NCBI RefSeq assembly: GCF_000337195.1
Contig: NZ_AOID01000012.1
Span: 274 to 34,173, forward strand
Origin: Natrinema versiforme JCM 10478
GTDB taxonomy: Archaea; Halobacteriota; Halobacteria; Halobacteriales; Natrialbaceae
Direction of reading: 5' to 3'
DNA: 33,900 bases
Part shown: positions 9,641 through 14,620 of the stretch, piece by piece
Numbering within the stretch: position 1 is the stretch's first letter
How the letters are laid out: every line of letters begins with the position of its first letter
Position numbers and translations under genes: made by a program
Notes under the pieces: generated by a model
The model's input: only the letters and a program-made list of their open reading frames with translations
What the model was told of the DNA's origin: nothing
Databases searched by the model: none

Positions 9641-9656
9641 GTATCCAATTGGATAC
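9641..9656. promoter_or_regulatory. Perfect 16-bp palindrome, candidate suf operator
   Basis: GTATCCAATTGGATAC is a perfect palindrome 48 bases upstream of the sufC ATG. It lies where the transcript from the TATA element at 9615-9626 would begin. This is the position and symmetry expected for a dimeric repressor. It is not the DtxR-type TTAGG/CCTAA pattern. The cognate protein is unknown. Confidence 0.55.
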
Positions 9657-9703: not shown

Positions 9704-10615
9704 ATGGCACGTCTCGAACTAAACAACCTGCACGCGGAAGTAGCGGAGGGCGACGAGAAGATCCTCGAGGGCGTCAACCTCGAGGTTCGGTCGGGCGAGA
9801 TCCACGCCCTGATGGGACCGAACGGGTCCGGGAAGTCAACGACCGCGAAGGTCATCGCCGGCCACCCAGCCTACGAGGTCACCGACGGTGAAGTTCTGCT
9901 TCACCTCGAGGACGAGGAGTTCGGCGAAGACATCGAGATCGACGAGGACCAGCGCACGTGGAACCTGCTGGACCTCGAGCCCAACGAGCGCGCCGCGCTC
10001 GGCATCTTCCTCGGCTTCCAGTATCCGGCCGAGATCGAGGGCGTCACGATGACGAACTTCCTCCGCACGGCGCTCAACGCCAAGATCGAAGAGCGCGAGG
10101 AGCTCTTCGAAGACGAGGACGGTGAGGCTGACGCCGAGGAGGACGACGAAGGCTTCGAGAACTCGCCGATGGAGGGAGACGTCGACGAGGGCGAAGTCGG
10201 CGTCGCCGAGTTCCAGCAGATCCTCCAGGAGAAGATGGAGCAACTGGACATGGACGAGAAGTTCGCCCAGCGCTACCTCAACGCCGGCTTCTCCGGCGGG
10301 GAGAAAAAGCAAAACGAAGTGCTGCAGGCCGCCATCCTCGAGCCCTCGGTCGCCGTTCTCGACGAGATCGACTCCGGGCTCGACATCGACCGACTACAGG
10401 ATGTCTCGAGCGGGATCAACGCGCTGCGCGACGAGCAGGGCACCGGGATCCTCCAGATCACCCACTACCAGCGCATCCTCGACTACGTCGAGCCCGATCA
10501 CGTCCACGTGATGCTCGACGGCCAGATCGCCAAGAGCGGCGGGCCGGAGCTCGCCGAGAAACTCGAGGACAAGGGGTACGATTGGGTCCGCGAAGAGGTC
10601 TACGGCACCGCGTAA
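9704..10615 (+). CDS. sufC: Fe-S cluster assembly ATPase SufC
   Basis: SufC is the ABC-type ATPase that drives the SufBCD scaffold in Fe-S cluster assembly in the cytoplasm. In this 303-residue protein Walker A GPNGSGKST is at 38-46, signature FSGGEKKQNE begins at 196, Walker B with D-loop (VAVLDEIDSGLDID) is near 218, and the switch His is in ITHYQRIL. The SufC-specific SGGEKKQNE distinguishes it from transporter ATPases. An acidic insert of about 35 residues (EDEDGEADAEEDDEG region, roughly 130-165) is an expected halophilic elaboration. It is the first gene of the operon; sufB follows after 59 bases. No sufS or sufE/U is nearby. Confidence 0.96.
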   Translation: MARLELNNLHAEVAEGDEKILEGVNLEVRSGEIHALMGPNGSGKSTTAKVIAGHPAYEVTDGEVLLHLEDEEFGEDIEIDEDQRTWNLLDLEPNERAALGIFLGFQYPAEIEGVTMTNFLRTALNAKIEEREELFEDEDGEADAEEDDEGFENSPMEGDVDEGEVGVAEFQQILQEKMEQLDMDEKFAQRYLNAGFSGGEKKQNEVLQAAILEPSVAVLDEIDSGLDIDRLQDVSSGINALRDEQGTGILQITHYQRILDYVEPDHVHVMLDGQIAKSGGPELAEKLEDKGYDWVREEVYGTA

Positions 10616-10674: not shown

Positions 10675-12105
10675 ATGAGTTCAGATCAAGACCACCTACA
10701 AGAGACAGACACCGAGGCCCGATTCGAGTTCAAGAAAGAGGAGAACTCCGCGGTCCGATCCGGCAAAGGCCTGACCGAAGAGGTCATTCGAATGATCTCC
10801 GACGACAAGGACGAGCCCGACTGGATGCTCGAGCGGCGTCTCCGCGCCCTCGAGCAGTATCACAACATGCCGATGCCGTCCGACTGGCCCGGCATGCCCG
10901 ACCTCTCCGAACTGGACGTCGAAGAAATCATTCCCTACATCCGACCGGACGTCGACAAGCGCGAAGGCGTCGACGACTGGACGGAGCTGCCCGACGAGAT
11001 TCAGGACACGTTCGACAAGCTCGGCATCCCGGAAGCGGAGAAGAACGCCCTCTCGGGCGTCGGTGCCCAGTACGAGTCCGAGGTCGTCTACCAGAACATG
11101 CAAGAGCAGTGGGAGGAGAAAGGCGTCATCTTCTGTAACATGGATGAGGCCGTCCGCGAACATCCCGAGCTCGTCAAAGAGCACTTCATGACGACCTGCG
11201 TGCCGCCAAGCGACAACAAGTTCGCCGCGCTGCACGGGGCCGTCTGGTCCGGCGGGTCGTTCGTCTACGTGCCGGAAGACGTCACCGTCGAGATGCCGGT
11301 GCAGGCCTATTTCCGGATGAACTCCGAGGGGATGGGCCAGTTCGAGCACACGCTCATCATCGCCGAGGAGGGCTCGGAGGTCCACTACATTGAGGGCTGT
11401 TCGGCCCCGAAGTACGGGACCCACAACCTCCACAGCGGAGGAGTGGAAGTCTTCGTCGGCGAAGACGCTCACGTCCAGTACTCGACCGTCCAGAACTGGT
11501 CGAAGAACACGTTCAACCTGAACACCAAGCGTGCCATCTGCGAAGAGAACGGCACGATGGAGTGGGTCTCGGGCAGCATGGGCTCGAAAGTGACCATGCT
11601 CTACCCGTGTACGATCCTCAAGGGTCGCGGCTCGACTGACACCCACATCACCATCGCCCTGGCGGGCGAAGGCCAGGACATCGACACCGGCGCGAAGGTC
11701 TACCACAACGCGCCCGAGACGAGTTCGACCATCGAATCCAAGTCGATCTCCAAGGACGGCGGCCGCACCAACTACCGCGGCCTCGTCCACATCGCCGACG
11801 GTGCCGAGAACGCAAGCACCGCCGTCGAGTGCGACGCGCTGATGTTCGACAACGAGTCCACGTCGGACACCATGCCGTACATGGAGATCGAGGAGTCGAA
11901 GGTCGACGTCGCACACGAGGCGACCGTCGGCAAGATCGGCGACGAGGACATCTTCTACCTCCAGTCGCGCGGACTGGACGACGACGACGCCAAGAAGATG
12001 ATCGTCGCCGGCTTCATCGAGCCGATCACGGAGGAACTGCCCATCGAGTACGCGGTCGAACTCAACCGCCTCATCGAACTCGAGATGGAGGGGAGCCTCG
12101 GATAA
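10675..12105 (+). CDS. sufB: Fe-S cluster scaffold protein SufB
   Basis: SufB is the main scaffold subunit of SufBCD, on which the nascent cluster is built with SufD. The 476-residue protein shows the family core: VSGSMGSKVTMLYPCTILKGR near 300, the TNYRGLVHI segment near 365, VECDALMF with C386, and AHEATVGKI with H414-E415. The last two correspond to the Cys and Glu needed for cluster assembly in bacterial SufB. The C-terminus FYLQSRGLDDDDAKKMIVAGFI is the standard interface with SufC. It is separated from sufD by a single base (TAA T ATG), which implies translational coupling and fixed stoichiometry. Nothing is missing. Confidence 0.97.
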   Translation: MSSDQDHLQETDTEARFEFKKEENSAVRSGKGLTEEVIRMISDDKDEPDWMLERRLRALEQYHNMPMPSDWPGMPDLSELDVEEIIPYIRPDVDKREGVDDWTELPDEIQDTFDKLGIPEAEKNALSGVGAQYESEVVYQNMQEQWEEKGVIFCNMDEAVREHPELVKEHFMTTCVPPSDNKFAALHGAVWSGGSFVYVPEDVTVEMPVQAYFRMNSEGMGQFEHTLIIAEEGSEVHYIEGCSAPKYGTHNLHSGGVEVFVGEDAHVQYSTVQNWSKNTFNLNTKRAICEENGTMEWVSGSMGSKVTMLYPCTILKGRGSTDTHITIALAGEGQDIDTGAKVYHNAPETSSTIESKSISKDGGRTNYRGLVHIADGAENASTAVECDALMFDNESTSDTMPYMEIEESKVDVAHEATVGKIGDEDIFYLQSRGLDDDDAKKMIVAGFIEPITEELPIEYAVELNRLIELEMEGSLG

Positions 12106-12106
12106 T

Positions 12107-13378
12107 ATGAGCGCAGGAACACAGGTACACGCCAATCTGACCGAAGAACAGGTACGCGAAATCAGCGGGGACCTCGGCGAGCCCGACTGGCTCACGGAGA
12201 CCCGACTCGAGGCCCTCGCGGCCCTCGAGGAGCTCGAGATGCCGGATGTCATCCGGACGCCGGGTCGAGACTGGACGAACCTCCACGAACTCGACTTCGA
12301 GTCGCTGGTGGACCCGCTGAACGCGGCCGAGAACAAGGACCAGGTCGGTCCCGACGAGGCCGACGTGCTCTCGTGGACCGAGGCCGTCGACGAGCACGAG
12401 GAGCTCCTCAAGGAGCACTTCGGTAGCATCGTCGATCCCCAGGAGAACTACCTGACGGCGCTCTCGACGGCGCTGTTTAGCACCGGAACGGTCATCTACG
12501 TCCCCGAAGGCGTCGACGCCGAGGACGTCGCCATCCGGACCGAGCAGAACTCCCGCTCGCTGTTCAACTACACGCTCGTCGTCACCGAGGAATCGTCCTC
12601 GGTCACGATCCTCGAGCGCCAGTCGACCGGCGAAGACAGCGAGGCGCGTAGCGCCTCGAGCAGTGCGAGCGGCGATGAGCCGCGAGCGGCCGACGAGCAG
12701 TACTACAGCGGCATCGTCGAGGTCGCCGCCGGCGAGAACAGCTACGTCCAGTACGGCAGCCTCCAGAACCTCTCGGAGGAGGCCTACAATTTCACCGTCA
12801 AGCGCGGCGTCACCGACACCTACGCCACGATCGACTGGATCGAGGGCAACCTCGGGACCCAGCTGACCAAGACCGAGGTCTCGACGGAGCTTCGCGGCGA
12901 CTCCTCGGAGACCCAGATCGTCGGGGCCTTCTACGGCCACAACGACCAGCACTTCGACCTCGACGCGAAGGTCTGGCATCGTGCGGAGCACACGACCGCC
13001 GACCTCGTCACCCGCGGCGTCACCGACGACATCGCCCGCTCGGTCTACGAGGGCGTCCAGGACGTCGGCTCCGACGCGTGGGACACCAGCTCCTACCAGC
13101 GCGAGAACACGCTGATGCTCAGCGACGAGAGCGAGGCCGACGCCTCCCCGAAGCTGATCATCAACAACCACGACACCGAGGCCAGCCACTCCGCGACGGT
13201 CGGCCAGATCGACAAGGAGGACCTGTTCTATATGACCTCTCGCGGTGTCGACCCGCGGGCCGCACGGAACATGCTCGTCGAGGGCTTCTTCGTGCCCGTC
13301 CTCGAGGAAGTCGACGTCGACGAACTCCGCGACGATCTCACGGAACTGATCGGCGCTCGACTCCGCCAGCGCGACTAA
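12107..13378 (+). CDS. sufD: Fe-S cluster assembly protein SufD
   Basis: SufD is a SufB paralogue that completes the SufB-SufC2-SufD complex. Of its 423 residues, the first 100 are the variable helical domain. The beta-helix core follows, with GTVIYVPEGVDAEDVAIR near 125 and QYGSLQNLSEEAYNFTVKRG near 210. The C-terminal NNHDTEASHSATVGQIDKED carries the conserved His of SufD (ASHSA), and FYMTSRGVDPRAARNMLVEG completes the SufC-binding end. Codons about 178-196 encode an Ala/Ser/Arg-rich insert ([17 protein letters not shown]) with strong DNA palindromes, which I consider an inserted element (separate feature). sufD lies one base after sufB. Confidence 0.95.
   Translation: MSAGTQVHANLTEEQVREISGDLGEPDWLTETRLEALAALEELEMPDVIRTPGRDWTNLHELDFESLVDPLNAAENKDQVGPDEADVLSWTEAVDEHEELLKEHFGSIVDPQENYLTALSTALFSTGTVIYVPEGVDAEDVAIRTEQNSRSLFNYTLVVTEESSSVTILERQSTGEDSEARSASSSASGDEPRAADEQYYSGIVEVAAGENSYVQYGSLQNLSEEAYNFTVKRGVTDTYATIDWIEGNLGTQLTKTEVSTELRGDSSETQIVGAFYGHNDQHFDLDAKVWHRAEHTTADLVTRGVTDDIARSVYEGVQDVGSDAWDTSSYQRENTLMLSDESEADASPKLIINNHDTEASHSATVGQIDKEDLFYMTSRGVDPRAARNMLVEGFFVPVLEEVDVDELRDDLTELIGARLRQRD
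12640..12690 (+). repeat. Palindromic in-frame insert within sufD
   Basis: Three short stem-loops lie back to back. CGAGGCGC (12640-12647) pairs with GCGCCTCG (12651-12658). GCGGC (12669-12673) pairs with GCCGC (12679-12683). The same GCCGC can also pair with GCGGC (12686-12690). The encoded peptide [16 protein letters not shown] interrupts a core beta strand region between LERQSTGE and DEQYYSGIVEV. It reads like a loop insertion tolerated by the fold, comparable in principle to protein-coding palindromic repeats known elsewhere. Confidence 0.55.
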
Positions 13379-13479: not shown

Positions 13480-13974
13480 ATGAGTCTGGGACAGCGTGTC
13501 TCGAGCGACCACCAGCTGACCCGATTGCTACAGATCGGGGTCGTGCTGGAGGAACTCGTCGAGTCACGCGCCGCCCACCACATCGACTCGCTCCCGCCGG
13601 CGGAGCGAGCGGAGTTCGACGAGGAGGTGGAAGAGTTGCTCGCGGAGGCCGCCGCGGAGTCGGCCGAGCACCGCGAGCGACTCGAGGCGCTGATCGACGA
13701 TCTCGAGGCCGAAACGGTCGGATACGAGGAAATCAATGCACTGGTCGACGCCCAGTACGGGCCGCCAGAGGACACGGACGGAGTCCTCTACGATCAGTTG
13801 GCGAACGAGGAGACGGCCTACAAGTTCTACGACGACCTGATCGAGGCGATCGAGGCCTCCGATTCGGAGTTCGCCGTCGATCGCGACCGACTGCTCGAGA
13901 CCCTCTCTGCTATCCGCGAGGAGGAAAAAGAGGGCGTCGAGGAAGTGACCGAGATCATGGAGCACAGAGCATGA
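13480..13974 (+). CDS. Ferritin-like helical protein
   Basis: This is a 164-residue, almost wholly helical acidic protein. Four helices can be drawn: about 10-34 (LLQIGVVLEELVESRAAHH), 44-74 (EEVEELLAEAAAESAEHRER), 106-128 (NEETAYKFYDDLIEAIEAS) and 133-164 (ending REEEKEGVEEVTEIMEHRA). Glu/His pairs such as ESAEH and EIMEHR, plus EETAYKFY, resemble diiron ligands of the rubrerythrin/ferritin-like superfamily, though not every canonical ligand can be matched. Iron storage or redox protection is an inference supported by its place between suf genes and a DtxR-like regulator. Its TGA overlaps the ATG of the next small ORF. Confidence 0.7.
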   Translation: MSLGQRVSSDHQLTRLLQIGVVLEELVESRAAHHIDSLPPAERAEFDEEVEELLAEAAAESAEHRERLEALIDDLEAETVGYEEINALVDAQYGPPEDTDGVLYDQLANEETAYKFYDDLIEAIEASDSEFAVDRDRLLETLSAIREEEKEGVEEVTEIMEHRA

Positions 13975-14108
13975 TCGGGGCGACGGCCACCGCGGCGGCC
14001 GCGGCCGTCGACGGCGGTGCAGTCGAGACGCGCACCGATTCCCGGGTTCGGGTACTCCGGCGAGGGACCGACGCGGCACGCGACGCGACCGACGGAGGGA
14101 CGCTATGA
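13971..14108 (+). CDS. Candidate 45-codon small ORF linking ferritin-like gene and sirR
   Basis: ATG at 13971 overlaps the TGA of the ferritin-like gene (ATGA). The frame runs 45 codons to a TGA at 14106-14108, which overlaps the ATG of the DtxR-like gene (again ATGA). Without it the two flanking genes would be 130 bases apart; with it the three form one coupled chain. The peptide begins MIGATATAAAAAVDGG and then becomes Arg/Asp-rich (RVRVLRRGTDAARDATDGG). Its arginine content is unusual for a haloarchaeal protein. It could instead be a G+C-driven chance frame that merely carries ribosomes between genes. No function is assigned. Confidence 0.4.
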   Translation: MIGATATAAAAAVDGGAVETRTDSRVRVLRRGTDAARDATDGGTL

Positions 14109-14539
14109 ACACCGCAGATCAATATCTCAAGGCGATCTATCTGGCGCAACGAATCGAGGACGGTCCCGCATCGACCGGCACGCTCGCGGACTTACTCGAG
14201 GTGAGCCCGGCGAGCGTCAACGAGATGATCGGGAAACTCGAGGACCGCGAACTCGTCGACCACGAGAAGTACAAGGGTGCCAGCCTGACCGACGAGGGGC
14301 TCGAGCGCGCCCACAACGCACTGCAGACCTACTGTATCATCGAGCGGTTCCTCGCCAACGTCCTCGAAGTCGAGGAGTTCCGCGACGAGGCTCGCGCACT
14401 CGAGAGCGTCATCGACGACACGGTCGCCGAACGGCTGGATACGATCATCGACCGTCCAGACCAGTGTCCCGACTGTTTCGACGCCGAGCAGGACTGCTGT
14501 GAACTGCTCGAACTCGAGGCCAGCGGCCGCGCGGACTGA
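14105..14539 (+). CDS. sirR: DtxR/SirR-like transcriptional regulator with Cys-rich C-terminus
   Basis: The 144-residue protein has the DtxR/MntR N-terminal winged helix: YLKAIYLAQRI (7-17), HTH TGTLADLLEVSPASVNEMIGK (24-44), and GASLTDEGLERA (58-69). The dimerisation/metal domain follows. The usual ligand-bearing phrases (RHRLxE, HDEAxxxEH) read YCIIER (76-81) and RDEARALES (93-101), so most canonical His/Cys ligands appear to be lost. The family's CPHGxPIP-like end is replaced by CPDCFDAEQDCC (C121, C124, C131, C132), plus C77. Thiol, zinc or Fe-S sensing is therefore plausible but unproven. It is the last gene of the ferritin-like unit, downstream of sufCBD. Confidence 0.85.
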   Translation: MNTADQYLKAIYLAQRIEDGPASTGTLADLLEVSPASVNEMIGKLEDRELVDHEKYKGASLTDEGLERAHNALQTYCIIERFLANVLEVEEFRDEARALESVIDDTVAERLDTIIDRPDQCPDCFDAEQDCCELLELEASGRAD

Positions 14540-14620
14540 TACGGTTTGCTGTAACGATTTATCGGCGCGACCGCAGGCCGAATCACGTTCGCGCCGGAAA
14601 TGACTTACAGCAGACCGTAT
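14539..14620. repeat. 82-bp nested palindrome between convergent genes
   Basis: The outer arms TACGGTTTGCTGTAA (14540-14554) and TTACAGCAGACCGTA (14605-14619) match with one G-T wobble and are extended by A/T at the ends. The inner arms CGGCGCGA (14563-14570) and TCGCGCCG (14589-14596) match perfectly with an 18-base loop. The spacers are symmetrical (8 and 8 bases) and contain ATTT/AAAT. It fills nearly the whole gap between sirR and the minus-strand phospholipase D-like gene. It could act as a bidirectional terminator or be a dispersed palindromic element. Confidence 0.7.

Follow-up and report, generated by a model that had tools for sequence, protein, structure and literature searches.

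The winged helix-turn-helix regulators SufR and IscR are tied to the suf and isc genes and use cysteine-based sensing. In Haloferax volcanii, TroR is reportedly the primary iron regulator (the 2024 TroR study of Martinez Pastor), and it reportedly represses iron uptake and induces iron storage under iron sufficiency. For the streptococcal Mn sensors, which share the DtxR fold, a review (PMC9253540) gives His76, Glu80, Cys123 and His125 as site 1 of MtsR, reports that repression is completely lost in MtsR site-1 mutants, and adds that these four ligands are important in SloR as well; PMC4805248 assigns Glu80, Cys123, His125 and Asp160 to the secondary site of ScaR.

Here, we compared with these systems a DtxR-fold regulator gene of the haloarchaeon Natrinema versiforme JCM 10478, which lies in the 33,900-nucleotide stretch of contig NZ_AOID01000012.1 that we analysed (the window) and is very probably the orthologue of H. 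volcanii troR (HVO_0863). For HVO_0863, PMC6801745 lists flanking primers that yield an amplicon of 1,767 bp. The forward primer, as it is printed there, had an exact match in 3 of 392 haloarchaeal genomes, which belong to one genus, and in these three its site lies between sufD and a ferritin-like gene. The DtxR protein that follows the match is 73.7% identical to that of the window and has the same gene order and all four of the cysteines discussed below, and no second DtxR gene was found within 2.6 kb of the primer in the three genomes. The reverse primer was absent from all 15 genomes of that genus. Moreover, exactly three Fe_dep_repr_C proteins are encoded in the Natrinema genome, as many as have been named in H. 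volcanii (Idr, SirR and TroR). From the primer match, the locus and this count, we infer the identity strongly but do not regard it as proven. Compared with H. volcanii TroR through the three genomes of one genus, the protein agrees in locus, neighbours, sequence and the four cysteines, and no difference was found. A new, undescribed suf regulator was ruled out, because locus and sequence point to TroR. The SirR label of the preliminary description had to be given up: the haloarchaeal SirR-like paralogue with a FeoA domain is encoded elsewhere, on contig C33, with its canonical ligands intact. In several genera (L040, L046, L050, L059, L072, L078 and L095), the canonical FeoA-bearing SirR-like gene shares a locus (up to about 16 kb) with TroR. 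The regulator is therefore already known in kind; what appears to be new is its site, and most notable are the missing canonical site of a regulator reported as primary for iron and a dual-site sister form.

The coordinates of the locus and of the residues discussed are collected in Table 1. According to the preliminary description, sufCBD and a ferritin-like gene precede the regulator gene; this same-strand order was confirmed, and the linkage proved to be widespread. The ferritin-like gene lies directly upstream on the same strand in 112 of 114 TroR loci of at least 8 kb (in the two others, only 17 and 88 bases precede troR before the sequence ends). Among 98 TroR loci with at least 5.5 kb upstream, 85 have a same-strand sufB no more than 7 kb away. 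As close relatives and a few duplicates are among the loci, these counts are not independent. The ferritin-like assignment stood only in part, since the library matches are weak (the best relevant Pfam match is Ferritin_2, E 0.25), but a Glu/His pattern (E25, E28, E60, H64, E110 and E149) is conserved. In genome G072 (L090), troR stops at about residue 51 while the ferritin-like and suf genes are present, which may reflect a real loss, an insertion or an assembly error. Right after troR in the window, at 14539-14620, there is a long, imperfect inverted repeat with the arms TACGGTTTGCTGTAA ... TTACAGCAGACCGTA. As RNA it folds with -43.3 kcal/mol (z -6.7), one more exact copy of its arm occurs elsewhere in the genome, and it is a candidate terminator or small element.

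Table 1. Features of the troR locus of N. versiforme (positions in the window; residue counts refer to 74 unique orthologues).
Feature	Position	Strand	Remarks
Perfect 16-bp palindrome GTATCCAATTGGATAC, candidate operator	9641..9656	.	47 bp before sufC
sufC	9704..10615	+	TIGR01978
sufB	10675..12105	+	TIGR01980
sufD	12107..13378	+	TIGR01981
Ferritin-like gene	13480..13974	+	conserved partner upstream of troR
troR orthologue (very probable), DtxR-fold regulator	14105..14539	+	144 aa, ATG start, without SH3/FeoA domain
Fe_dep_repress winged-helix DNA-binding domain	14108..14281	+	residues 2-59, Pfam
Q6	14120..14122	+	replaces DtxR M10 / MntR D8; Q in 74/74
Fe_dep_repr_C metal-binding/dimerisation domain	14288..14473	+	residues 62-123, Pfam
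Y76	14330..14332	+	replaces DtxR H79 / MntR H77; Y in 74/74
C77	14333..14335	+	invariant, 74/74; Cys in every dual-site relative too
E80	14342..14344	+	kept site-1 ligand (DtxR E83, MtsR Glu80); 73/74
R93-x3-R97-x2-E100-S101	14381..14407	+	replaces H98/C102/E105/H106; only E100 retained, 74/74
CPDC knuckle	14465..14476	+	C121 and C124 invariant; C121 = Cys of ScaR/SloR CPH motif by alignment
C131	14495..14497	+	not conserved, Cys in 40/74
C132	14498..14500	+	invariant, 74/74

The protein belongs to the DtxR fold family by both Pfam domains, Fe_dep_repress (PF01325, E 1.5e-17, 63.9 bits against a cut-off of 26) and Fe_dep_repr_C (PF02742, E 2.8e-12, 46.9 bits against 27), the first of which bears out the DtxR/MntR-like N-terminal winged helix noted previously. 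An AF2 model built on 52 aligned sequences (mean pLDDT 89.5, pTM 0.83) has helices at residues 4-18, 24-31 and 35-47, wing strands at 51-54 and 58-61, and a small hairpin at 125-132. It superposes on the structures of MntR, DtxR, IdeR, ScaR and SloR (Foldseek, VIA-align 2), with Z 15.3 for 8pw0 (rmsd 2.5 over 124 residues) and Z of about 14.5 for the DtxR entries, DtxR being matched at 14.7. TroR resembles DtxR, IdeR and MntR in its winged-helix and dimerisation domains (Z about 14 to 15) and in keeping E83 and E105, but differs from them in the loss of all primary-site ligands except E105, in the lack of an SH3 domain and in the presence of the four cysteines.

Judged by the alignment, both DtxR/MntR metal sites have lost most of their canonical ligands (M10 to Q, H79 to Y, H98 to R, C102 to R and H106 to S). 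The positions follow the ligand numbering of DtxR and MntR, the sequences of which served as yardsticks. The primary-site ligands M10, C102, E105 and H106 read Q, R, E and S, with only E105 kept; the ancillary or site-1 ligands H79, E83 and H98 read Y, E and R, with only E83 kept. The altered motifs RDEARALES (residues 93-101) and YCIIER (76-81) read exactly as had been claimed. Among the 74 unique orthologues aligned, position 93 (DtxR H98) is R in 63, Q in 5 and K in 2, position 97 (DtxR C102, MntR E99) is R in 57, K in 6 and H in 3, and position 101 (DtxR H106, MntR H103) is S in 59, A in 8 and P in 5. This set leaves out L059, the C-terminus of which is out of frame, L090, which ends after about 51 residues, and L069, which is broken by a contig end (the cysteines in its visible part fit the pattern).

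These substitutions allow two explanations that make no use of the cysteines. TroR could be an ordinary Mn- or Fe(II)-activated DtxR protein operating on a degenerate acidic site formed by E80, E95, E100 and D104, with the cysteines incidental. These acidic residues are indeed conserved in 73-74 of the 74 orthologues, but we regard such a site as highly improbable, as all His, Cys and Met ligands of both canonical sites are gone, positions 93 and 97 are mostly Arg, and the cysteines are invariant. Alternatively, R93 and R97 could mimic the bound metal, so that the protein would be constitutively active without a cofactor and controlled by its own level. The frequency of Arg at the two positions (63/74 and 57/74) fits this, as does a short paralogue of the same clade that has also lost the cysteines (L002, L070). 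However, four invariant cysteines would be left unexplained, and TroR was detected in the H. volcanii iron-starvation proteome with no significant change (PMC11349517), so that its level is not obviously the signal; of all the explanations considered, this one seems to us the hardest to believe.

The five cysteines listed in the preliminary description were found, at residues 77, 121, 124, 131 and 132. Four of them lie in the tail after residue 120, where, as had also been stated, the usual CPHGxPIP end is replaced, by CPDCFDAEQDCC at residues 121-132. Five cysteines in 144 residues are more than chance would give, as five neighbouring ORFs together hold 11 in 2278 residues (Poisson P about 8e-4). 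Their conservation is not uniform, however: C77, C121, C124 and C132 are Cys in 74/74 unique orthologues, whereas C131 is Cys in only 40, so the conserved set consists of four cysteines, and a single site made of all five was ruled out. Poor conservation in orthologues, which the preliminary description had named as a refutation, was thus found for C131 alone. A motif test in the named GTDB scan found the four in 80/80 loci, nine of which are dual-site. We conclude from the alignment that in haloarchaeal TroR the usual metal ligands of the family are gone in nearly all cases, and that four invariant cysteines are present instead. In an open-access library without the key papers, searches on DtxR-family Fe-S or cysteine sensing and on haloarchaeal DtxR regulators listed no description of such a site, and a literature search on the DtxR anion site returned nothing usable.

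The idea that this cysteine cluster is new could be kept only in part. The cluster is present and conserved, but in alignments of PDB sequences the CPH of ScaR and SloR falls on C121-P122-D123; C121 is thus the CPH cysteine, a metal ligand in other DtxR proteins, and the cluster is not wholly new. Taken together with the published site-1 ligands, this alignment indicates that two site-1 ligands, C121 and E80, have been inherited. C77 adjoins the position of the lost His76, and C124 and C132 are additions. Compared with MtsR, SloR and ScaR, TroR therefore shares the fold, and its E80 and C121 correspond to their Glu80 and Cys123, but Y76 and D123 take the places of His76 and His125, three extra cysteines are present, the FeoA domain is absent and the second canonical site is lost.

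The CPxC knuckle resembles those of zinc ribbons, and the main rival to a Cys4 sensor is a structural zinc: a permanent Zn(Cys)4 would tie the short C-terminal tail to the dimerisation helix, with iron sensed elsewhere, by weak residual ligands or by a partner such as the ferritin-like protein. This fits the observations nearly as well as a Cys4 sensor does. Apart from the zinc-ribbon-like knuckle, the tail would take the place of the SH3/FeoA domain, which this protein lacks, the AF2 model has its small hairpin at this very place (125-132), and the dual-site form described below has cysteines beside an intact canonical site. Nevertheless, we are doubtful about it, as it leaves TroR, a reported regulator of iron genes, without an evident sensing site, and as C121 and E80 match two of the sensing ligands in MtsR and SloR. 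A thiol redox switch, in which disulfides formed under peroxide or disulfide stress alter DNA binding, is a less likely candidate. CPxC is a plausible redox pair, and in PMC5605881 the sirR deletion of Halobacterium had the strongest peroxide phenotype among the tested mutants, although this sirR may be another paralogue. However, four cysteines that are invariant as a set fit metal binding better than they fit a two-thiol switch, and the neighbours of troR are iron genes and not genes of thiol defence.

We compared DtxR-family proteins of related genomes. Matches at E 1e-5 or better were present in 147 of 149 relatives, the two without a match being about 70% complete. A dual-site form, with the full canonical ligand set and the same four cysteines, occurs at 13 distinct loci (16 rows, in which three represent the same contig taken twice with another start codon); its carriers are Halorutilus (L126), Halorhabdus (L127), Halapricum, Halodesulfurarchaeum (L133), several MAGs and other genomes. 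It shares with TroR the four cysteines, the clade and, in some genomes, the ferritin linkage, but differs in keeping M10, H79, E83, H98, C102 (D in L147), E105 and H106. In Ods02 (L130), the last part of the ferritin-like gene overlaps with the dual-site gene, and a ferritin-like gene is near the dual-site gene on four distinct contigs (seven rows: L061, L062, L064, L065, L126, L129 and L130), which places the dual-site form at the same locus there; at six other loci (L063, L068, L127, L131, L132 and L133), no ferritin-like gene was found near it.

C77 and the CPxC[FY]..C motif occur together in 155 of 191 unique DtxR-family rows, a set that takes in L059 and also L090 (neither motif), with the L069 row also in the input. 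As the motif never occurs without C77 (0 of 191), the cysteines behave as one unit. The exceptions are L059, which has C77 and CPxC without the last Cys, and L067, which has C77 and a different Cys-rich tail; the other 34 rows have neither C77 nor the motif. In a maximum-likelihood tree, TroR, the short Cys-less paralogue and the dual-site form make up one clade together with L067 (97/80), within which TroR and the short paralogue group at 100/98, while the dual-site form is not supported as a unit (65/5) and the root is unsure. Related archaeal proteins outside the haloarchaea carry the canonical site and, lacking C77, mostly end in a CPDG...C(C) or CPHG tail. One such non-haloarchaeal relative (L221, genome G616) has 1 of 6 canonical ligands and a CPKC...CC end, again without C77, possibly an independent ligand loss. 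Genome G159 carries a divergent second TroR copy (L223), about 49% identical, in which the four cysteines are kept.

The dual-site form cuts both ways. Cysteines beside an intact ion site suit a structural origin, whereas their retention where TroR has lost the ion site suits a sensing role, the exception being the short paralogue, which has lost both. On balance, we favour, with a probability of roughly 0.45, a sensing role for the cysteines: a Cys4 iron or Fe-S site, at the place of the former site 1, would let TroR read the iron supply. TroR would have arisen beside the ferritin-like gene from a dual-site ancestor; its canonical sites would have lost their activation by Mn/Fe(II), and a thiolate-rich site would have been kept at the site-1 position. 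This site would bind iron, as mononuclear Fe(Cys)4 or as an Fe-S cluster, and its occupancy would set the dimer or DNA-reading state of the protein, while R93 and R97 may stand in for the missing cations via salt bridges. The iron-uptake and storage genes, and in some lineages the suf genes, would in this way be controlled by iron or Fe-S sufficiency. We put forward more tentatively the strict form of this proposal, in which a Cys4 Fe-S or Fe(Cys)4 centre has replaced Mn/Fe(II) sensing and links uptake, storage and suf to cluster supply, the ancestral dual-site form being still alive in Halorutilus, Halorhabdus and Halodesulfurarchaeum.

The metal site on which the mode of action of the family depends appears to be missing from the protein reported as the primary iron regulator of a model archaeon. 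If the cysteines are the sensor, the DtxR fold would have switched its ligand chemistry within one clade, with an intermediate form still living, and TroR would be an archaeal candidate for the missing SufR/IscR counterpart; if they hold a structural zinc, the signal of TroR would have to be sought elsewhere. SufR and IscR belong to protein families separate from that of TroR. Membership of SufR (TIGR02702, 13.3 bits against a cut-off of 178.8) and of IscR/Rrf2 (PF02082, 16.4 bits against 30) was ruled out for the protein. A profile search found no SufR over the cut-off in this genome, and a single partial Rrf2-type match over the cut-off, which covers the HTH part only.

Two kinds of candidate operators were found. 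The box TTAGGTNNACCTAA is close to the IdeR consensus TTAGGTTAGSCTAACCTAA as given in PMC8464063. With up to one mismatch, it occurs at 14 places in this genome (L226-L239), against 0 for the reversed control. The 10 proteins scanned beside these boxes are two Ferritin (Dps-like) proteins, FecCD, two Peripla_BP_2, an ABC ATPase, a class-III aminotransferase, SIMPL, BPD_transp_1 and Cupin_2. The boxes thus seem to mark an iron regulon, the reader of which could be any of the three DtxR proteins. Among 85 upstream regions of sufC, 8 contain an exact box, which stops only a few bases short of the start codon (11 if one mismatch is allowed; 0 for the reversed pattern); they belong to Haladaptatus, Halorussus and near relatives and to one genome of another family (L050). 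The SufR/IscR-like role at suf that the preliminary description had proposed has only indirect support from a DtxR-type box at the sufC start of these relatives, and no such box was found at suf in this genome. A DtxR-type operator at the ferritin-like/troR pair was rejected, as the box with up to two mismatches occurs in 0/176 ferritin-gene and 0/179 troR upstream regions, both sets including near-duplicate loci. The palindrome before sufC (Table 1) is a single copy in the genome within two mismatches; in relatives, it was found exactly in two and with one mismatch in a third. There is only a thin case that TroR controls suf directly. The short paralogue of the TroR clade is also present in the Natrinema genome itself (L002, C63:81867-82208), as a protein of 118 aa that has lost the canonical ligands and all cysteines, and there is a TTAGGTAGACCTAA box some 110 bp away from the end of its gene, towards a Dps-like gene.
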